Positions 6,080 through 15,775 of a stretch of DNA of 64,000 bases are shown here, one piece after another. The translations under genes and the position numbers were made by a program. Source of the stretch: Acidimicrobiia bacterium (GTDB lineage: Bacteria > Actinomycetota > Acidimicrobiia > Spongiisociales > JAHEDJ01); contig JARGFH010000007.1 in assembly GCA_029210695.1 (NCBI GenBank), forward strand, positions 1 to 64,000, read 5' to 3'. Numbering within the stretch: position 1 is the stretch's first letter; each line of letters opens with the position of its first letter. The notes under the pieces are model-generated. The model searched no databases, was not told where the DNA came from, and saw nothing but the letters and a program-made list of their open reading frames with translations.

Positions 6080-6094
6080 GTCACATATTGTGAC
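6080..6094 (+). promoter_or_regulatory. GTCAC palindrome upstream of adhesin gene 1
   Basis: GTCACA-TAT-TGTGAC is a perfect inverted repeat. A similar palindrome, GTCAC-N5-GTGAC, sits at the same place relative to the RNA element before the second adhesin gene (10482-10496), with the same AAA or AA on its left. It may be a DNA operator or the first hairpin of the leader RNA. Confidence 0.45.
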
Positions 6095-6095
6095 A

Positions 6096-6184
6096 GGGGC
6101 GCAATTTGGGAGGCATCGAACTTCAATCCGAAACTCGGTCACCTATGGATTGAAGCGAGCTAGTGGTGAGACCGGCCCCGCCCC
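6096..6184 (+). ncRNA. Conserved pseudoknot RNA element, copy 1 (5' leader of adhesin gene)
   Basis: The main stem pairs CTTCAATCC (6121-6129) with GGATTGAAG (6147-6155). The 17-nt loop contains CGGTCACC (6136-6143), which can pair with GGT-GA-GACCG (6165-6174) outside the stem, making a pseudoknot. GGGAGGC (6108-6114) precedes the stem. An outer stem GGGGCG/CGCCCC (6096-6101 with 6179-6184) can close it. The same architecture with compensating base changes recurs at 10497-10591 and, without the outer stem, at 13746-13814. It looks like a riboswitch or protein-binding leader, but I cannot match it to a named class. Confidence 0.7.
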
Positions 6185-6211
6185 GTCACGAAAGTGAGGG
6201 GAGGCGGAGAA

Positions 6212-9200
6212 ATGAATAAGGGTCCGATTTCGAGGGCAGCCGGCATCGCCGTGCTTGCATTTCTGTTGGTTATTGGTTCGTTCCTGGTCGTCATGCCGGA
6301 GAGTGCCGACGCGGCGCTCGGCGGTCTCACAGGTTTTGAGATCGATGGCGATGTCGTTGCGTCCGGGGGTGTTGATTGGCAATCGTTGCCGAATTCTGCT
6401 GGGGTATTCGATCCTGGTGAAGTCTTGGTCATCAACGATCAGAACTTCACCGGTGCCCAGCTCGTCACGGATCCCTCCACTGCGGCCAACACGTATTGCA
6501 TCGGTGGTGACGACCTCATCGTGAAGAACGGCACCAAACTGACCGATTTCCCATTTGTGGCGGTAGACGGAAGTCCTGCTCCCGGAAAGAACGACATCTG
6601 TCAGACCTACGTTGCTTATGACGTGGTCCCGAACGCAGGTGTCAATGAAATCGTGCTTTACGTCGGCGTGATTCGGCGCGAAACAAATGGCACGACGGCC
6701 GTCGCCGTCGAACTCAACCGGATCGATCAAGCGCACCGCCAGTCGGGCGACCTCGTGATCTCGTTCGAGTTTGATGGAAACGGTCCTGTTGCGGTTGTGA
6801 ATATCCGAGAGTGGAACGGCTCAGGGTTTGACCTTACGGCCGTCGGAGGAACGAGCGCTGCTGAGGGCTACTCGACAGACCACTTCGGTGAGATTGCCGT
6901 CAACCTCACGGCTACCGGTATTCTGCCGCCCCCCGAAAACCCGGAGGATTGCTCGACGCTCGGCACGGTGCTTCCGTTTGGCTGGGCAGGTAACTCCGAT
7001 ACCTCGAATATTGGCGACTGGGGTGGTAGCGCCCCTCTCGGTCTCGACCTCTGCGGCAAACTGATCATTGAGAAGCAGACAAATCCGACAGGATCGACCG
7101 AAACGTTCGGATACTCGCTCTCGACGAGTGCTCCTTTCTCCCCGCTGACCGGTTCGCTCATCGGTGATGGTGATTCCTTCGAGTGGTTGCTCCCCGACGG
7201 CAATTACACCCTCGTGGAGGCCGACCCATTCGGCCTTGGGTGGGCATTCGATAACTATTCGTGTAACAACGGGGCATCAAGCGAAGATCGGGCGGCCGGC
7301 GTGACCGTTCCGGTGTCGCTGGGCACGACGATCACCTGCACCATCGAAAACGTCCAGCCGGCCATCTCGGTAACGAAGACGGCCGATCCCACGAGCGTGC
7401 CCGAAACAGGCGGCGACGTCACCTTCACGTTCCGGGTCGACAATACGGGTCCCGAAGCTGTATCCCTCACCGATCTCGTCGATTCGGTGTTCGGCGACCT
7501 GGACGGCCAGGGGAGTTGCGTTCTTCCGCAGGACCTCTCCATTGGCGGTTTCTATGAGTGCTCTCTGACTGTCTTCCTGGACTCTGACGACCTCGTCGAT
7601 CACTTCGACGAGGTCACGGCCACGGCTTTTGATGCAGCAGGTTTGACGGCAACGGCCACCGATGACGCAACCGTCACGTTCAACGATCTGTTGCCGACGG
7701 TTGGGTTGACGAAGTCGGCTGTGCCGTCGTCGTTGCCAGAACCTGGTGGTGATTTCGTCTTCACGTTGACGATTACGAATACGTCGGTGGAGCCGGTGAC
7801 GATCACTGATTTGTCGGATTCTCAATCTGGTGCGACGGACTTCTCGGCGTGTTCTGCGCTGGTGGGTTCTGTGCTGGCTGTGGACGCGACGGTTGAGTGT
7901 GAGTACACGGTTGCTCACAGCGAGGCTGGTTCTTATGACAACACGGCGTCGGTGACGGTCGAGGACAATGACGGCAACTCGGCGTCGGATGAGGCCGCTG
8001 AGACGGTCACGGTTGTCGATGTGTTGCCGACGGTGGAGTTGGCGAAGTCGGCTGTGCCGTCGTCGTTGCCAGAACCTGGTGGTGATTTCGTCTTCACGTT
8101 GACGATTACGAATACGTCGGTGGAGCCGGTGACGATCACTGATTTGTCGGATTCTCAGTCTGGTGCGACGGACTTCTCGGCGTGTTCTGCGCTGGTGGGT
8201 TCTGTGCTGGCTGTGGACGCGACGGTTGAGTGTGAGTACACGGTTGCTCACAGCGAGGCTGGTTCTTATGACAACACGGCGTCGGTGACGGTCGAGGACA
8301 ATGACGGCAACTCGGCGTCGGATGAGGCCGCTGAGACGGTCACGGTTGTCGATGTCCGGCCGTCTGTTGACTTGGTGAAGGATGCGTCGCCTGGTTCGTT
8401 GCCCGAACCGGGTGGTGACTTCACGTTCACGCTCACGATTTACAACACCACGGTTGAGCCGGTGCAGGTGACGGCGTTGTCTGATGATTACACGTTGCCG
8501 GCCGGTTGCACGGGCCTGGTTGGCCAGTGGATTCCGGTGGGCGGGAATCTGTCTTGTTCCTATACGGTGACACATACCGATGCTGGTTCGTATGACAACA
8601 CGGCGTCGGTAACGGTCGAGGACAATGAAGGCAACCCGGCGTCGGATACCGACGATGAGACCGTGACGGTCACGGATACGCCGATTGCGATCAGCATCCA
8701 GAAGACGGCCGATCCCCTGTTCCTCAACGAACCGGGCGGCACCTTCACCTACACCTTGACCATCACCAACCCGTCGCAGGAAGCGGTGGAGATCAAGGCT
8801 CTGACGGATTCCAATGCACTGTCGGCCGATTGTCTGAATCTGATCGGAGAGACACTCAACCCGGCGGGCGATGAAGGTGACAGCGTCTCATGCACGTACA
8901 CCGTCGACCACACGACACCCGGCGTATATGACAACGTCGCCACAGTGGTCGTCATGGACAATGAGGAGAACGAGGCAACCGACGATGACGATGCATCGGT
9001 CTCCGTGCTCGATGTGCCTTCGTCGATCCTCGTTACCAAGACACCCGGCGTCACTCAGATCGCAGAACCGGGCGGAACGGTGACGTTCACCGTCGTCGTT
9101 GAAAACACCAGCGAGACCGACATGCTGATCGTGGCATCGCTCGTCGACGATGTCTACGGTGACCTGAACGGTCAGGGTAACTGCACGGTTCCGCAGAAGC

Positions 9201-10312
9201 TCGCCGTCGGTGAGTCGTACACCTGCTCGTTCGATGGTGAGGTGCTCGGCAACGCCGGCGATTCTCATGTCAACGTCGTCACGGTCACGGCGGAAGATGA
9301 CGACGGCAACTTCATCGAGGATGACGACGATGCGACCGTCAATGTGACCGACGTCGCTTCAGGGATCTCGGTAACCAAGACTGCCGATCAGCCGGCGGTG
9401 CAAGAGCCGGGCGGGACCGTGACCTTCACCGTGGTCGTGCAGAACCCGAGCGCCGCCGATTCCGTGACGATTACGAGCATGGTCGACGACGTATTCGGTG
9501 ATCTCAACGGACTGGGCACCTGCTCGGTCCCGCAAGAACTCGCACCCGGTGCCAGCTACACCTGCAGTTTCGACGGCGAAGTCGCAGGGGAAGCCGGCAG
9601 TTCCGCCGATCCACATGTCAACACAGTGACGGTGGTCGGGATTGACGATGATGAGAACGAGGTCACCGACTCGGACGACGAAACCGTCGACATCACCGAG
9701 AAACCGACCGGTACGATCGGCGACTTCGTGTGGAACGACACCAGTGAGGATGGCATCCAGGACGCCGACGAGGTTGGTGTCGAGGGTGTGCTCGTCGAAC
9801 TCGTCGATGCCGACACCGGTGAGGTGATCGCCTCCATGACGACCGGCGCCGACGGAGCCTACGAATTCTCGGGTGTTGAAGAGGGTGACTACTTCGTGCG
9901 GTTCACGACTCCGAAGTCGTGGGAGTTTGGCCTCGTCGACGCGGGCGATGACGACTCTGTCGATAGCGATGCCGTCTTCAAGTCCGGGAGCGGCGAGAAG
10001 CAAGAGCACTTCGAGATCGCCGAGACACTTCCGTTCTCGCTCGCCGCCGGTGAAACGAACACCAGCTTCGATGCGGGAATGATCAAGATCTTCGTGTCGC
10101 CTCAGGTGATCACCACGACAACGACGACCACTACGGTGGCGACGACGACGATCTCGACGTTGCCGTTCACCGGGTTCGGTCAGGGTGACGTGGCGGGAAC
10201 CGCTCTCGTGCTGATCGTGCTGGGTGGATTCGTCTTGCTGGCCATGCGCCGGAGGGATGACCTCCTCGAGACTGCTGCGGCAGAGGCGCCGCATCCGGCC
10301 TGGGACGAATAG
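6212..10312 (+). CDS. LPFTG-anchored surface protein with seven DUF11-like repeats
   Basis: The product is 1366 aa and is exported. It has a signal peptide (AVLAFLLVIGSFLVV, cleavage near SADA) and a globular N-terminal region to about residue 380. Seven Ig-like repeats of about 110 aa follow, each starting with a (V/I)xxxK motif and carrying PEPGG, ITNTS and CSYT-type signatures of the DUF11/conserved-repeat family (about 382-1165). Next come an SdrD-B-like domain (IGDFVWNDTSEDGIQD, about 1166-1280), a Thr-rich stalk, LPFTG at 1317-1321, a TM helix and a basic RRR tail. This is the layout of a sortase-anchored adhesin. The ATG at 6212 is used because GGGGAGGCGGAG lies just upstream. Gene order and leader RNA are shared with the two genes after it. 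No sortase gene is in the window. Confidence 0.85.
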   Translation: MNKGPISRAAGIAVLAFLLVIGSFLVVMPESADAALGGLTGFEIDGDVVASGGVDWQSLPNSAGVFDPGEVLVINDQNFTGAQLVTDPSTAANTYCIGGDDLIVKNGTKLTDFPFVAVDGSPAPGKNDICQTYVAYDVVPNAGVNEIVLYVGVIRRETNGTTAVAVELNRIDQAHRQSGDLVISFEFDGNGPVAVVNIREWNGSGFDLTAVGGTSAAEGYSTDHFGEIAVNLTATGILPPPENPEDCSTLGTVLPFGWAGNSDTSNIGDWGGSAPLGLDLCGKLIIEKQTNPTGSTETFGYSLSTSAPFSPLTGSLIGDGDSFEWLLPDGNYTLVEADPFGLGWAFDNYSCNNGASSEDRAAGVTVPVSLGTTITCTIENVQPAISVTKTADPTSVPETGGDVTFTFRVDNTGPEAVSLTDLVDSVFGDLDGQGSCVLPQDLSIGGFYECSLTVFLDSDDLVDHFDEVTATAFDAAGLTATATDDATVTFNDLLPTVGLTKSAVPSSLPEPGGDFVFTLTITNTSVEPVTITDLSDSQSGATDFSACSALVGSVLAVDATVECEYTVAHSEAGSYDNTASVTVEDNDGNSASDEAAETVTVVDVLPTVELAKSAVPSSLPEPGGDFVFTLTITNTSVEPVTITDLSDSQSGATDFSACSALVGSVLAVDATVECEYTVAHSEAGSYDNTASVTVEDNDGNSASDEAAETVTVVDVRPSVDLVKDASPGSLPEPGGDFTFTLTIYNTTVEPVQVTALSDDYTLPAGCTGLVGQWIPVGGNLSCSYTVTHTDAGSYDNTASVTVEDNEGNPASDTDDETVTVTDTPIAISIQKTADPLFLNEPGGTFTYTLTITNPSQEAVEIKALTDSNALSADCLNLIGETLNPAGDEGDSVSCTYTVDHTTPGVYDNVATVVVMDNEENEATDDDDASVSVLDVPSSILVTKTPGVTQIAEPGGTVTFTVVVENTSETDMLIVASLVDDVYGDLNGQGNCTVPQKLAVGESYTCSFDGEVLGNAGDSHVNVVTVTAEDDDGNFIEDDDDATVNVTDVASGISVTKTADQPAVQEPGGTVTFTVVVQNPSAADSVTITSMVDDVFGDLNGLGTCSVPQELAPGASYTCSFDGEVAGEAGSSADPHVNTVTVVGIDDDENEVTDSDDETVDITEKPTGTIGDFVWNDTSEDGIQDADEVGVEGVLVELVDADTGEVIASMTTGADGAYEFSGVEEGDYFVRFTTPKSWEFGLVDAGDDDSVDSDAVFKSGSGEKQEHFEIAETLPFSLAAGETNTSFDAGMIKIFVSPQVITTTTTTTTVATTTISTLPFTGFGQGDVAGTALVLIVLGGFVLLAMRRRDDLLETAAAEAPHPAWDE
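7691..8356 (+). repeat. Two nearly identical tandem 333-bp repeat units inside the adhesin gene
   Basis: 7691-8023 and 8024-8356 are direct repeats of exactly 333 bp (111 codons) that differ at only a few positions by eye: near the left edge, and A versus G in the TCTCA(A/G)TCTGG segment. The flanking repeats of the same protein are much more diverged. This indicates a recent tandem duplication or gene conversion of a single Ig-like domain. Confidence 0.9.
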
Positions 10313-10335
10313 AACACGCCGATCAAGCGATGAGT

Positions 10336-10365
10336 TTGGGGCCCCGGAGCAATCCGGGGCCCCAA
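10336..10365 (+). terminator. Strong GC-rich hairpin after adhesin gene 1
   Basis: A perfect 13-bp stem TTGGGGCCCCGGA/TCCGGGGCCCCAA with a GCAA tetraloop lies 24 nt after the stop codon. There is no run of T after it, so it would be a non-canonical actinobacterial terminator or mRNA 3' stabiliser. Of the 309 nt up to the next gene, the second half holds the palindrome and RNA element listed next. Confidence 0.75.
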
Positions 10366-10481
10366 CTATTGGTCGTGTCTTGCCGACAGCACACCACGTT
10401 AGGTGGCAGACTAGTCACAAAGAATGAGACTTTGTCCATCCTTACGCATGGTCACACTGAGTGGTAGCGTCGACACTGAAA

Positions 10482-10496
10482 GTCACAACACGTGAC
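10482..10496 (+). promoter_or_regulatory. GTCAC palindrome upstream of adhesin gene 2
   Basis: GTCAC-AACAC-GTGAC is an inverted repeat placed directly before the RNA element, exactly as at 6080-6094. A possible promoter lies just upstream (TTACGC about 17 nt before TAGCGT, ending near 10471), but the match to consensus is weak. Confidence 0.4.
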
Positions 10497-10591
10497 ATGG
10501 GGCAACTGAATAGGGAGGCGCTGACCTTCGACCCGCAATTCGGTCACCAATGGGTTGAAGCGAGCTGAGTGGTGAGACCGGCCCGCCCCAT
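10497..10591 (+). ncRNA. Conserved pseudoknot RNA element, copy 2 (5' leader of adhesin gene)
   Basis: The main stem is CTTCGACCC (10526-10534) with GGGTTGAAG (10552-10560). Compared with copy 1, the middle base pairs are changed on both sides, which keeps pairing. Loop CGGTCACC (10541-10548) pairs with GGT-GA-GACCG (10571-10580). GGGAGGC is at 10513-10519. The outer stem ATGGGGC/GCCCCAT (10497-10503 with 10585-10591) is 7 bp. A separate hairpin ATCCGT/ACGGAT (10590-10606) then leads into the ribosome binding site. Confidence 0.72.
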
Positions 10592-10621
10592 CCGTAGACG
10601 ACGGATGTGAGGAGCGGACAC

Positions 10622-13600
10622 ATGACCGAAGGCAATTCTCTGCGAGCAGCAGGCTATGGGGTGCTCGCATTCCTACTGGTAGCGGTCTCACTAGTGACGT
10701 TGCCTCCGCCGGCCCGGGCCGAGGGGAACATCAACTACTCGGACTACACCTTCTATTTCGCGAATGGAACGGTGTGGGAGGGGAACACGTGGGACGAGGG
10801 TGGCGGCAATAACGCCACAGTGCCGGCGAATTTCGGTGTTGGAAGCGCTCGAATCCTCCATGTCTCGTGCTCCGACACATTCAGCGATGGCTTCTCCGAC
10901 GATCCGGCTCCGCGGTTCCCGCTGGCATCAGATGGCACGAGTCAAGAGTGGAAGATTCTCTCGTATCACATCGACAAATACCAGTCGAAGAACGACGTCG
11001 TTCCGGGCGACATGACGAAGATCCAAGATTCATGCGGAGAGACCTTTGTTCCTGCGAGCATCACTGTTGTGAAGGACACTTTGCCCCTCACTTCGGATCC
11101 TTTTTCCTTTGAACTCGACGCGGTGATCGCCTCACCACCCTCGGCGCCTTCGTTTGTCAGCCCGTCTCTCCCCGACGACCGGAGCGTGTCCGGCGCGGGT
11201 GGCTCGTACACCTGGGGGAATCTGCTCGCAGGTTCATATACGCTCTCCGAGTTGATCGGCTCGAATCCTCCTGAGTACGAGTTCGCGTCCGTCGAGTGCA
11301 CGAACGGCGCCTCGAGCGCTGGAGTGCCTTCTGTCGCGTTCGGCCTCCACGGAGGTGAGCACGTCACCTGCACGTTCGTCAACCAGGCTGAAATCACGCT
11401 CATCCCCAACGTCGATATTGAGAAAGCGACGAACGGCGAAGATGCCGACACGGCGACCGGACCCGAGATCCCTATTGGTGATCCTGTCACCTGGACTTAT
11501 GTGGTCACGAATACCGGCGAATTGCCGTTGACCGGCGTCACCGTGATCGACAATCAGGGCGTTGCCGTTTGGTGTCCGCGAGGCACCCTCGGTGTTGGCG
11601 AATCGATGACCTGTACAGCCAGTGGCACTGCTGTGGAAGGCCAATACGCCAACTTGGGCACGGTTACCACCACTGAGGGTCCTTCGGATGAGGATCCGTC
11701 GCACTACTTCGGTCTGACCCCGGCCGTTGATATCGAGAAGGCCACGAATGGCTTTGACGCCGACGACCCACAAGGCCCCTGGTTGGTTGCAGGCAACGAT
11801 GTCACCTGGACGTATGTGGTCACAAACACAGGTGAACTGCCGTTGACCGGCGTGACGGTGACCGACGACGTTCTCGGTGCGATTTGTGAGATCGGTGAGC
11901 TGGCGATCGGCGCTTCTGATACCTGCACGGCCGCCGGCATTGCCACCATCGGCCAGTACGCCAACCTCGGTACCGTCACGACCGACGAGGGTGTCTCGGA
12001 CGAGGATCCCTCGCACTACTACGGGTTCATACCGGAGGAACCTGGGATCGATATCGAGAAGGCCACCAACGGCGAGGACGCCGACGACCCGACCGGTCCA
12101 TCCATTCTGGCCGGCGATCCCGTCACCTGGACCTACCTCGTGTCGAACACGGGCAACATTCAGCTGACGGGCGTGGAAGTCCTCGATGACCAGGGTGTTG
12201 CCGTCTCATGTCCGACTGACTCGCTCGACGTCGGCGAGTCGATGGAATGCACGGCCACCGGTACGGCGACGGTCGGCCAGTACTCCAACCTGGGTACCGT
12301 CACCACCGATCAAGAGGTCTCTGATGAGGATCCTTCTCACTACATCGGCTATGCAGTGGGATCGATCGGAGACTTCGTCTGGTTCGACCAGAACAAGAAC
12401 GGGATTCAGGACGGTGGTGAGCCGGGCGTTGCCGGCATCGACGTCTACCTCCACGAGGGTGAGGTATGCAGCGGCGAACCGATCGCACAGACGACGACCG
12501 ACGCTGACGGCCTCTACCTGTTCGACGGGTTGTTCGCCGGTACCTACTGCATCGAATTCCAGCTCCCATACGAGTATGCGTTCAGTCCGGCAGATCAGGG
12601 CGGCGACGGCGCACTCGATAGCGACGCTCCGACCGAGGTGGTCGTTCTCGCCGAAGGCGAAGACAACCTGAGCGTCGACGCCGGTCTCGTTGGTGGGGAT
12701 ATCACCTTGGAGAAGGAGACCGACGTCGCGACAGAAGAGACCTTCGGTTTTGACTTCAACGGGACGCAGGAGGTTGATCTGGGATCGGGTGGTTCGGCGA
12801 CCTTCCACGTGCCGGGCGGTGTGTACTCGATTACCGAGTTTGTAGCGCAAGGTTGGGAACTCGTCGAGGTTCAGTGCGGAGACATCGAAGCCGACATCGA
12901 TCTCACCGGTGGAAACGTCACGTTGTTCGTGCCGCCGGGCGGCTCGGTCGGTTGCACCTTCCTGAACCATGAGATTCAAGAGCCAGTGGGTCTCATCGGA
13001 GACTTCGTGTGGAAGGACACGGACGGTGACGGTGTTCAGGACGAGGGTGAACCCGGTATCGCCGGTGTGAAGGTGGAGTTGTTCGACGCGGAAACGGACG
13101 AGTCGGCCGGCTCGACCAACACGGATGCAGACGGCATTTACGTGTTCGGCAACGTTGCGGCTGGCGACTACTACCTGCTGTTCACCGGCCCGGTCGACTG
13201 GGAGTTCACACTGGCGGACGAAGGGTCGGACGATGCAGCCGACAGCGATGCAGACGCTCTGGACCCGGAAGCCAACCCGCAGATCGGGCGAACGGCGGTG
13301 TTCGCGCTCGGCGCAGGGGTCGCAGATCTTTCCCGTGACGCCGGGCTGATCTTCGTTGAGGTGTTCCCTCAGGTCATAACAACGACGACGACTACCACTG
13401 CGCCACCGACGACGACTACAACCACCGTGCCGCCGGCCACAACGACGACCACGGTGGCCGACACGACTGTAGAAACATTGCCGTTCACCGGGTTCGGTGA
13501 GGGAGGAATGGGCAGCCTCGGCTTTGCACTCATCGTTCTGGGCGGGCTCGTGCTGATGGCAGTCAGCCGAAAGGAAACCGACCTGGAAGTCGTATCGGAG

Positions 13601-13630
13601 GAGGCGCCGGCGAGGTCCTGGGAGGACTAA
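10622..13630 (+). CDS. LPFTG-anchored surface protein with three DUF7507-like repeats and two SdrD-B-like domains
   Basis: The product is 1002 aa. It has a signal peptide (GVLAFLLVAVSLVTL, cleavage near ARA). The N-terminal region carries a SpaA-like segment beginning ASITVVKDTLPL. Three repeats starting (V/I)DIEKATNG follow, each with GDPVTWTYVVTNTG-type signatures and ending EDPSHY. Two SdrD-B-like domains (IGDFVWFDQNKNGIQDGG and IGDFVWKDTDGDGVQDEG, with Ca-binding-like Asp clusters) are separated by a short SpaA-like unit. The Thr-rich stalk, LPFTG at 953-957, TM helix and charged tail close it. The ATG at 10622 is preceded by GAGGAGCGG. It is paralogous to its two neighbours and shares their leader RNA. 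Confidence 0.85.
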   Translation: MTEGNSLRAAGYGVLAFLLVAVSLVTLPPPARAEGNINYSDYTFYFANGTVWEGNTWDEGGGNNATVPANFGVGSARILHVSCSDTFSDGFSDDPAPRFPLASDGTSQEWKILSYHIDKYQSKNDVVPGDMTKIQDSCGETFVPASITVVKDTLPLTSDPFSFELDAVIASPPSAPSFVSPSLPDDRSVSGAGGSYTWGNLLAGSYTLSELIGSNPPEYEFASVECTNGASSAGVPSVAFGLHGGEHVTCTFVNQAEITLIPNVDIEKATNGEDADTATGPEIPIGDPVTWTYVVTNTGELPLTGVTVIDNQGVAVWCPRGTLGVGESMTCTASGTAVEGQYANLGTVTTTEGPSDEDPSHYFGLTPAVDIEKATNGFDADDPQGPWLVAGNDVTWTYVVTNTGELPLTGVTVTDDVLGAICEIGELAIGASDTCTAAGIATIGQYANLGTVTTDEGVSDEDPSHYYGFIPEEPGIDIEKATNGEDADDPTGPSILAGDPVTWTYLVSNTGNIQLTGVEVLDDQGVAVSCPTDSLDVGESMECTATGTATVGQYSNLGTVTTDQEVSDEDPSHYIGYAVGSIGDFVWFDQNKNGIQDGGEPGVAGIDVYLHEGEVCSGEPIAQTTTDADGLYLFDGLFAGTYCIEFQLPYEYAFSPADQGGDGALDSDAPTEVVVLAEGEDNLSVDAGLVGGDITLEKETDVATEETFGFDFNGTQEVDLGSGGSATFHVPGGVYSITEFVAQGWELVEVQCGDIEADIDLTGGNVTLFVPPGGSVGCTFLNHEIQEPVGLIGDFVWKDTDGDGVQDEGEPGIAGVKVELFDAETDESAGSTNTDADGIYVFGNVAAGDYYLLFTGPVDWEFTLADEGSDDAADSDADALDPEANPQIGRTAVFALGAGVADLSRDAGLIFVEVFPQVITTTTTTTAPPTTTTTTVPPATTTTTVADTTVETLPFTGFGEGGMGSLGFALIVLGGLVLMAVSRKETDLEVVSEEAPARSWED

Positions 13631-13652
13631 CAACGGCGGGAGGAAGGCAACG

Positions 13653-13680
13653 CTGGGCCCCGGAGTTCTCCGGGGCCCAG
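13653..13680 (+). terminator. Strong GC-rich hairpin after adhesin gene 2
   Basis: A perfect 13-bp stem CTGGGCCCCGGAG/CTCCGGGGCCCAG with a TT loop lies 22 nt after the stop codon. Its core GGGCCCCGGA...TCCGGGGCCC is the same as in the hairpin after adhesin gene 1. Confidence 0.75.
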
Positions 13681-13745
13681 TTGCGCGATAGGGCCGGAGG
13701 CCCATTGTGTGAGGCCGTACTCAATGAGAAGATGAAACCTGGCTC

Positions 13746-13814
13746 GGGAGGCCGTGACCCCCAGTCCGAGAACGGTCACCGGGATTGGGGTGAGCCAATG
13801 GTGAGACCGGCCCG
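13746..13814 (+). ncRNA. Conserved pseudoknot RNA element, copy 3 (5' leader of adhesin gene)
   Basis: GGGAGGC is at 13746-13752. The main stem CCCCAGTCC (13759-13767) pairs with GGATTGGGG (13782-13790); the outer half of the stem differs from copies 1 and 2 on both strands. Loop CGGTCACC (13773-13780) pairs with GGT-GA-GACCG (13800-13809). The conserved GGTGAGACCGGCCCG block is intact. The long outer stem of copies 1 and 2 is not evident here, and the GTCAC palindrome is replaced by GGGCC-GGA-GGCCC at 13691-13703. A TCCC-GAAA-GGGA hairpin abuts the ribosome binding site. Confidence 0.7.
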
Positions 13815-13840
13815 CATAACATCCCGAAAGGGAGGGAGAG

Positions 13841-15775
13841 ATGCGGAACGGTTTGTCACGTTCATCTGGCGGTATCGCGGTTCTTGCTTTCCTTCTGGTT
13901 GCTTTGACGTTCGTTCTAGTGGGCCCACTTGAGGCCGGAGCAACCTCTGACGGTGGAGAGCATCGTCCACCGGCCGGGTGTGTGAAGCTCGAAGATCCCA
14001 ACGACATCCCGTCGACGACCGAGGTCGCGTTGGCGAATGGGGTGACCGTCACATTTGATTGGACGACCAAGCCATCTGAGGCCGGGGAATGGATCGGCTT
14101 CGAATGGTCCGCAGTCGGCGGATCTGCATACGGGACTGTCAAGGCGTCGACCGAGGTCTACGACTGGGGACCGAGTCAAACGGGGACCTTTCTCGTGCCG
14201 GACGATGAGAACGGGCGAGTTCACGCGATCTCCTATGTGATCGTGTGCGGCGAACCGCTGCCGCACGGTTCGATCACCGTCATCAAGGATGCCGTGCCGG
14301 ACGCCGCAGATACACCCTTCGGCTTCGTGCTCGATGGCCTCGACGATCCGGTCGAGTTCGAACTGATCGACGATGGGGAATCTCCCGGCCTGGCGGCGAG
14401 AACTTTCGATGAGCTTTCGCCGGGAACCTACGCCGTCGGTGAGACGGCCCTCCCGGAAGGCTGGGACCTCACGGACATCGATTGCGGGGAAGCAGACGTA
14501 TCGGTCGATGGCGATGCAGTGTTCATCGAACTCGAGGATGGAGATCAGGTGGTCTGCGTCTTCACCAATGAGAGGGAAGAGGAGATCGATCTCGGCTCGA
14601 TTACCGTGATCAAGACGACGTCACCTGAGACTGCACAGGAGTTCCTCTTCACGCTCGAGCCGGGCGATTACCAACCGGTCGCAGGGAACGGAGGCACGTA
14701 TACGTGGGCCGGTCTCGAGGCCGGCACATACAACCTGTTCGAAACACTGACCGAAGCGCAGAGTGCAGACGGCTGGCATCTCGAAACGGTCGAATGCGAC
14801 AACGAGGATGATCCGGACGCAATCACGCTCGAGGCCGGGGGCGACGTCGTTTGCACGTTCGACAACCACCAGACCGTCGACTTCGTGCTCGAGAAACTGA
14901 CGAACGTCGAGAGCCAGGACGAGTTCAGCTTCGAGCTCGACGGTGTTGCACTGGTCGATCTCGCCGGGGGAGAGACCTTCGAGACCGTCCTCGAAGAAGG
15001 CACGTACACGGTTACGGAACTGATCGTCGACGGATGGGACCTGTTCAGCATCGTTTGTACCGGAGCGGAAAGCACTGTTGACATTGCCGCGGCCAGCGTT
15101 GAGTTGCTCCTGCTACCGGGTGCCGACGTGCGCTGCACGTTCGTCAACAATGAGGAGGCGGCCGAGCTGGGCGTAATCGGTGATTATGTCTGGCACGATG
15201 CCGACGAGGAGGGCGACCAGGATGGTGACGAGCAGCCGCTGGCTGGGATTCAGGTTGACCTCCTGGACTCGAACGGCCGAGCCATCGCATCAACGAAAAC
15301 CGATGTGCTGGGTCTGTATAGCTTCTTCAACGTTCCGGAAGGTGACTACCGGGTTCGGTTCCACGGTCCGACAGGTTGGACATTTACGAAACGCGACGCG
15401 GCGGCGGACGCGATCGACAGCGATGCGCTCGTTGCCGACAAGAAAGCTGATCCGCAGATCGGCGAGACCGACCTGTTTCACTTGAATGCCGGCGCAGTCG
15501 ATCTGTCTCGTGATGCCGGCCTCTTTGGTGAAACCAGGGTGCTCCCGCAAGTGATCACCACAACAACCACAGCAGCCACAGCAACCACAACGACGATTGC
15601 GTCCGCGTCCACGACAGCAGAGACCTTGCCTTTCACCGGGGCACCCGAAGCCCCAAGTCTCATCGGGTTGGCGACGGCGCTGCTGGCGCTGGGACTGATG
15701 GCGGTTCTCGCCATCAAACGGAGGGAGGATCTGCCGGTAACCGGGTGGTCGCAGCGGCTGCGCGACACCTACTGA
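13841..15775 (+). CDS. LPFTG-anchored surface protein with SpaA-like repeats and one SdrD-B-like domain
   Basis: The product is 644 aa and is the smallest of the three. It has a signal peptide (GIAVLAFLLVALTFVLV). The middle contains three to four prealbumin/SpaA-like units (GSITVIKDAVPD, GSITVIKTTSPE and VLEKLTNVES start points), each with a T(Y)xxxE(T/L) element and ending in a C-x-F-x-N motif. An SdrD-B-like domain (IGDYVWHDADEEGDQDG) follows. A Thr-rich stalk, LPFTG at 596-600, TM helix and KRRE tail form the sorting signal. The ATG at 13841 follows GGGAGGGAGAG. It is the last of the cassette, before the unrelated valS. Confidence 0.85.
   Translation: MRNGLSRSSGGIAVLAFLLVALTFVLVGPLEAGATSDGGEHRPPAGCVKLEDPNDIPSTTEVALANGVTVTFDWTTKPSEAGEWIGFEWSAVGGSAYGTVKASTEVYDWGPSQTGTFLVPDDENGRVHAISYVIVCGEPLPHGSITVIKDAVPDAADTPFGFVLDGLDDPVEFELIDDGESPGLAARTFDELSPGTYAVGETALPEGWDLTDIDCGEADVSVDGDAVFIELEDGDQVVCVFTNEREEEIDLGSITVIKTTSPETAQEFLFTLEPGDYQPVAGNGGTYTWAGLEAGTYNLFETLTEAQSADGWHLETVECDNEDDPDAITLEAGGDVVCTFDNHQTVDFVLEKLTNVESQDEFSFELDGVALVDLAGGETFETVLEEGTYTVTELIVDGWDLFSIVCTGAESTVDIAAASVELLLLPGADVRCTFVNNEEAAELGVIGDYVWHDADEEGDQDGDEQPLAGIQVDLLDSNGRAIASTKTDVLGLYSFFNVPEGDYRVRFHGPTGWTFTKRDAAADAIDSDALVADKKADPQIGETDLFHLNAGAVDLSRDAGLFGETRVLPQVITTTTTAATATTTTIASASTTAETLPFTGAPEAPSLIGLATALLALGLMAVLAIKRREDLPVTGWSQRLRDTY

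Follow-up and report, generated by a model that had tools for sequence, protein, structure and literature searches.

Known class II switches and the present locus

In Clostridioides difficile, class II c-di-GMP riboswitches are known to turn on adhesins anchored by sortase; the switches of this class are mostly transcriptional there (PMC11477304). The canonical family is catalogued as RF01786, with the structure 3Q3Z and the C. difficile CD2831 and CD3246 switches; beside it stand RF03169 (c-di-GMP-II-GAG, clan CL00127) and a sister variant of the same clan, RF03170 (c-di-GMP-II-GCG). In Paraclostridium, tandem c-di-GMP-II aptamers, two or three per gene, precede COG4932 surface anchor genes (PMC9481103). 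In the 64,000-nucleotide stretch of Acidimicrobiia DNA analyzed here (the window), several aptamers are likewise linked to surface anchor proteins, but with one aptamer before each of three genes. The architecture, the sortase-anchored adhesin targets and the proposed ON logic recall RF01786, whereas the window copies, in contrast to most C. difficile switches, look translational. These data suggest that class II c-di-GMP control of sortase-anchored adhesins, as in Clostridioides, also exists in Actinomycetota, with a translational platform. A search of part of the riboswitch literature yielded no description of such control in Actinomycetota, and an earlier one is possible. Added to the catalogued family are a bias towards LPxTG targets, a probable strand exchange between P1 and the Shine-Dalgarno sequence, and the covariation of pocket positions 37 and 69. 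In an order of Actinomycetota whose members are mostly uncultured, a little-studied riboswitch variant is tied almost exclusively to one class of targets, the LPxTG surface proteins, and the strand exchange proposed for it is concrete enough to be assayed with short RNAs.

Identity and structure of the three RNA copies

Direct reading of the sequence at 6096-6184, 10497-10591 and 13746-13814 recovered all the pieces described in the original prediction, with the common GGGAGGC, the loop CGGTCACC and the downstream GGTGAGACCGGCC present in the three copies. All of them match RF03169, the c-di-GMP-II-GAG riboswitch aptamer, with 65.7, 61.2 and 57.0 bits (Rfam release 15) for a curated gathering cut-off of 40 bits. 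The matches span model positions 1-86 of 86 and their E-values against the curated covariance model (7e-11 to 1e-8) are far from chance. With the canonical RF01786 the scores are 46.7, 45.8 and 37.2 bits, under the cut-off of 53.5; RF03170 was found in one relative of the class, but the window copies are assigned to RF03169. The three copies are therefore real riboswitches of an already catalogued family and not a new RNA family. The original prediction could match the motif to no known class; the Rfam scan that it proposed returns RF03169 well over cut-off, and with this significant match to an existing family the unknown class and the novelty are both rejected. Sequence, stem, pseudoknot and conserved core are common to RF03169 and the window copies, but the Rfam model is limited to the aptamer and includes neither the P1/Shine-Dalgarno platform nor an upstream dyad. 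The features of the locus are collected in Table 1.

Table 1. Features of the three adhesin genes and their leaders (positions in the window).
Feature	Position	Strand	Description
Copy 1, extended P1 5' strand	6090..6101	+	GTGAC-A-GGGGCG; complements 6179-6189 (CGCCCC-GTCAC)
Copy 1, c-di-GMP-II-GAG aptamer	6100..6185	+	RF03169, 61.2 bits, E 1e-9
Copy 1, pseudoknot strands	6136-6143 and 6165-6174	+	within aptamer 6100..6185
Copy 1, platform	6178..6209	+	P1 3' strand CCGCCCCGTCAC (6178-6189), GAAA loop, GTGAGGGGAGGCGGAG (6194-6209)
Adhesin gene 1	6212..10312	+	1366 aa, signal peptide, DUF7507/DUF11/SdrD_B, LPFTG tail
GC-rich inverted repeat, genes 1/2	10338..10363	+	GGGGCCCCGGAGCAATCCGGGGCCCC, possible transcript end
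Copy 2, outer P1 5' strand	10497..10503	+	ATGGGGC; complements GCCCCAT 10585-10591
Copy 2, c-di-GMP-II-GAG aptamer	10505..10592	+	RF03169, 57.0 bits, E 1.2e-8
Copy 2, platform	10583..10617	+	CCGCCCCATCCGT (10583-10595) pairs ACGGAT (10601-10606) and GGAGCGG (10611-10617, Shine-Dalgarno)
Adhesin gene 2	10622..13630	+	1002 aa, SdrD_B/DUF7507/SpaA, LPFTG tail
GC-rich inverted repeat, genes 2/3	13655..13678	+	GGGCCCCGGAGTTCTCCGGGGCCC, possible transcript end
Copy 3, c-di-GMP-II-GAG aptamer	13738..13821	+	RF03169, 65.7 bits, E 7e-11
Copy 3, platform	13812..13846	+	P1 3' strand CCGCAT (13812-13817) complements start-codon region ATGCGG (13841-13846)
Adhesin gene 3	13841..15775	+	644 aa, SpaA/SdrD_B, LPFTG tail

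The 9-bp stem is CTTCAATCC/GGATTGAAG in copy 1 (6121-6129/6147-6155) and CTTCGACCC/GGGTTGAAG and CCCCAGTCC/GGATTGGGG in the remaining two. Its conservation with both strands changed, first claimed from these copies, extends to an alignment of 51 related sequences in which 8 of the 9 pairs are doubly changed, the ninth falling on a gapped column. In this alignment 95.5% of the cells that make up the stem, a short inner helix, the inner P1 and a two-part pseudoknot are paired, and 119 cells are changed on both sides versus 38.5 +/- 5.4 in shuffles and 4-29 in slid versions. Covariation is thus found beyond this locus. The compensating outer stems of copies 1 and 2 (GGGGCG/CGCCCC and AUGGGGC/GCCCCAU) are present as well, and in copy 1 the extended P1 is predicted to form in the MFE fold of the free leader. 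The CGGTC/GACCG pseudoknot exists, but the single CGGUC/GACCG helix had to be refined: by analogy with canonical c-di-GMP-II, the pairing may be read as CGG/CCG plus UCACC/GGUGA, with the GA between them (69-70) as a bulge of the ligand pocket. All three copies contain CGGUCACC with GGUGA-GA-CCG, and the pseudoknot cells of the 51 sequences are 99% paired. The pseudoknot columns are almost invariant within the window's order, and across families the pair 42/66 is A-U in 56 sequences and G-C in 36.

Of 395 genomes sampled from the class, Acidimicrobiia, 97 have RF03169 (91 over the family cut-off), and the same-genus genome G201 has the same three-copy arrangement. When one genome from each of 84,980 species was scanned with a strict pattern, 39 stretches were recovered. 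Their labels are Acidimicrobiia, Coriobacteriia, other Actinomycetota and, in one or two cases, plain 'bacterium'; one more label, Acidobacteria, probably belongs to a mislabelled bin of the window's order. Within the window's own genome (an assembly of 181 contigs), a fourth match was set aside (C5:42933-43014; L004 1501-1582; RF03169, 41.8 bits). Decay of a former copy, or a false positive, is the probable explanation, since the two-base pocket bulge is missing, ATCGGTCAC/GTGACCGAT being a perfect 9-bp complement, and since a TsaC/Sua5-like gene follows at about 170 nt. Weak matches to BjrC68 and sX12, below cut-off, correspond to the inverted repeat between genes and were rejected.

Adhesin genes and other targets

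The three genes behind the RNA copies do encode LPFTG adhesins, as had been proposed: the ATG codons at 6212, 10622 and 13841, 19-29 nt 3' of the aptamers, are the likely starts of secreted proteins, all with an LPFTG tail. DUF7507, DUF11, SdrD_B and SpaA domains are the usual components of sortase-anchored surface proteins, and the genome encodes three sortases. Adhesin gene 1 contains two consecutive near-identical repeats of about 330 bases each (7700-8360), which look like a sign of recent domain duplication.

Other copies upstream of LPXTG-type genes, which the original prediction had suggested looking for, are the rule in the window's order: 35 of the 37 complete downstream genes carry LPxTG in their last 60 residues, and assembly Ns lie within one of the two remaining genes. 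In the rest of the class, riboswitches of the family stand before genes for LPxTG proteins, for type IV pilin-like proteins (FTLVELLIV) and for short secreted proteins with AYW/AYF-GSGTG at their start, and a 1290-aa LPFTG protein follows at least one of the Coriobacteriia copies. The riboswitch may control only a subset of the LPxTG proteins, because other LPxTG-like tails of the genome, with weak scores, are found on contigs without a riboswitch match.

Expression platform

It is likely that each adhesin gene is under its own c-di-GMP-II-GAG riboswitch and that c-di-GMP turns translation ON. At high c-di-GMP, the ligand would occupy the pseudoknot pocket and hold P1 closed, so that the 3' strand of P1 would be unavailable to the Shine-Dalgarno region (copies 1 and 2) or to the start codon (copy 3); the ribosome-binding site would be free, the ribosome would load and the sortase-anchored adhesin would be made. 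At low c-di-GMP, the P1 3' strand would pair with the ribosome-binding region and translation would be off. This ON direction follows from the P1 3' strand being common to P1 and to the Shine-Dalgarno pairing, a ligand-closed P1 freeing the ribosome-binding site. As to both direction and level of control, we infer that the platform is probably translational ON.

In copy 1, GTGAGGGGAGGCGGAG contains the Shine-Dalgarno sequence and its duplex with the P1 3' strand amounts to -19.8 kcal/mol; the platform duplex of copy 2 amounts to -16.7 kcal/mol. Copy 3 does not show the P1 3' strand/Shine-Dalgarno pairing seen in copies 1 and 2. Its platform surrounds a small hairpin, TCCC-GAAA-GGGA, adjoining the Shine-Dalgarno sequence, and a similar start-codon pairing with base changes occurs in the same-genus relatives G201 and G098; from these three sequences, copy 3 may be an anti-start-codon version of the platform.

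In the window's order, the P1 3' strand and the Shine-Dalgarno region change together, in the forms CCUGUCCC/GGGAUAGG, CCCUCCCC/GGGGAGG, CCCGUCCC/GGGAUGGG and CCGCCCC/GGGGAGGCGG. With one copy per genome, true pairs have a mean of -14.1 kcal/mol versus -11.7 +/- 0.47 after permutation (0/5000 permutations), in a test that removes shared ancestry only in part. The family f4 alone also gives 0/5000, control regions give no matched-pairing signal (1443/5000 and 4626/5000), and the signal is weaker in other orders of the class (23/5000 and 30/5000). Within a genome, exchanging the platforms of paralogs frequently gives pairings no less stable than the real ones; the match is therefore one between species more than between copies. 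The pairing of the P1 5' and 3' strands has no species-specific signal in the order (3521/5000); for P1, the evidence of an exchange comes from its conserved inner pairs and from copies 1 and 2 as read directly. In 19 of 41 cases, both inner P1 cytosines take part in the pairing of the P1 3' strand with the Shine-Dalgarno region; in the remaining ones, only the outer P1 would be shared between the two pairings.

Partition-function folding, simplified in that it takes account of neither the pseudoknot nor tertiary contacts, predicts a mean Shine-Dalgarno accessibility of 0.34 in the free leader and 0.63 with the aptamer occupied, with a gain above 0.3 in 22 of 44 leaders and a loss in one of the 44. 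For copy 2 the unpaired fraction is 0.41 free versus 0.90 occupied; no gain is predicted for copy 1 (0.39 to 0.37) or copy 3 (0.57 to 0.36). In copies 1 and 3 the Shine-Dalgarno sequence would thus be hidden no more in the free leader than in the occupied one, as could be expected if the same aptamer and ligand worked in this organism as an OFF switch or at the level of transcription. We regard this as rather unlikely, since none of the three window copies has a terminator-like hairpin with a U-run ahead of the start codon, which lies 19-29 nt after the aptamer, and since the matched complementarity across the order supports a competition between P1 and the Shine-Dalgarno sequence, which gives ON. 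Most of the Coriobacteriia copies have behind them a hairpin with the pseudoknot strand GACCGG as its 5' arm and then a U-rich stretch, an arrangement also seen in G115 and G032 (Acidimicrobiia of other orders). These terminator-like hairpins would also follow ON logic and bring independent support, because ligand binding would use up the GACCGG strand and prevent termination.

Ligand pocket and signalling genes

For position mapping we used the 3Q3Z sequence, with which all 13 published contact identities agree. The name GAG presumably designates G67 A68 G69, where 3Q3Z has GCA at 67-69. The three window copies have G67 A68 G69 together with C37. In 3Q3Z the ligand contacts are A13, A14, U37, G39, U60, A61, C68, A69, A70, C71, C72, G73 and A74 (PMC7288161). 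On the above mapping, A13, G39, A61, A70, C71, C72 and G73 are kept in the window copies, as is U60 except in copy 3, which has C. The canonical contacts are not conserved in full, positions 14, 37, 68 and 69 deviating from RF01786 and 74 being G. Positions 37 and 69 vary jointly (C-G in 61 sequences, U-A in 25, C-A in 4), a variation that partly follows lineage and counts as few independent events.

The ligand is likely c-di-GMP, because the genome has GGDEF and EAL domains and c-di-GMP is thus available. Cyclic dinucleotides, named among candidate ligands in the original prediction, were a good guess. Four GGDEF domains of the genome combine an intact motif with the guanine-specific Asp; in addition there are one REC-GGDDF protein and two strong EAL domains. 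A GGDEF match was obtained in the ten riboswitch-bearing relatives tested; the incomplete assemblies G144 and G189 have one weak match each, the REC-GGDDF protein in G144 and a match without recognizable motif in G189.

That the C37/G69 pocket of this same family senses another ligand, such as 3',3'-cGAMP, to which the adhesins would answer, appears unlikely. RF03169 is indeed separate from canonical c-di-GMP-II, whose cut-off the copies miss, the concerted change at 37 and 69 affects contact positions, and at least two genomes (G131 and G303) contain the C37/G69 as well as the U37/A69 pocket, located upstream of different genes; moreover G144, with two strong copies, showed the REC-GGDDF type as its only GGDEF protein. 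Against this, all the motif-bearing GGDEF domains inspected keep the guanine-specific Asp, with no Hypr-type serine, surface-adhesion genes are classic c-di-GMP targets, and another complementary pair in place of U37/A69 can preserve the geometry. It is more doubtful still that the GAG form as a whole is a ligand-switched class for a signal other than c-di-GMP, some relatives having both pocket forms side by side; were it so, LPxTG adhesins and other surface genes would answer to two cyclic dinucleotides. An RNA thermometer or a protein-binding leader involving no small molecule is hardly credible: hairpins near the Shine-Dalgarno sequence could act alone as thermometers, but a full-length riboswitch aptamer match with conserved pocket and pseudoknot, in 97 genomes, rejects the thermometer part of the functional leader originally predicted and leaves its riboswitch part standing.

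Nearly all the riboswitch-bearing genomes examined, the window's own (contig C58) among them, have a response regulator whose GGDEF domain is of the GGDDF type (DLDNFKAFNDHYGFMRGD).

Upstream dyad

Just 5' of P1, most copies of the window's order have a dyad, NNNCAC-N5-GTGNNN, represented in the window by GTCAC-ATATT-GTGAC (6080-6094) and GTCAC-AACAC-GTGAC (10482-10496). Its outer bases differ between species with compensation, and its mean folding z is -1.54 versus -0.24 in control stretches. From its sequence, the dyad could be an operator or form a hairpin at the mRNA 5' end. A promoter-like TTGAC-N17-CANNCT pair lies just upstream in some relatives. In copy 1, GTGAC (6090-6094) can pair with GTCAC either upstream (6080-6084) or downstream (6185-6189), and the downstream GTCAC can also pair with GTGA (6194-6197) adjoining the Shine-Dalgarno sequence, alternatives that make a multi-way exchange possible between 6080 and 6197.
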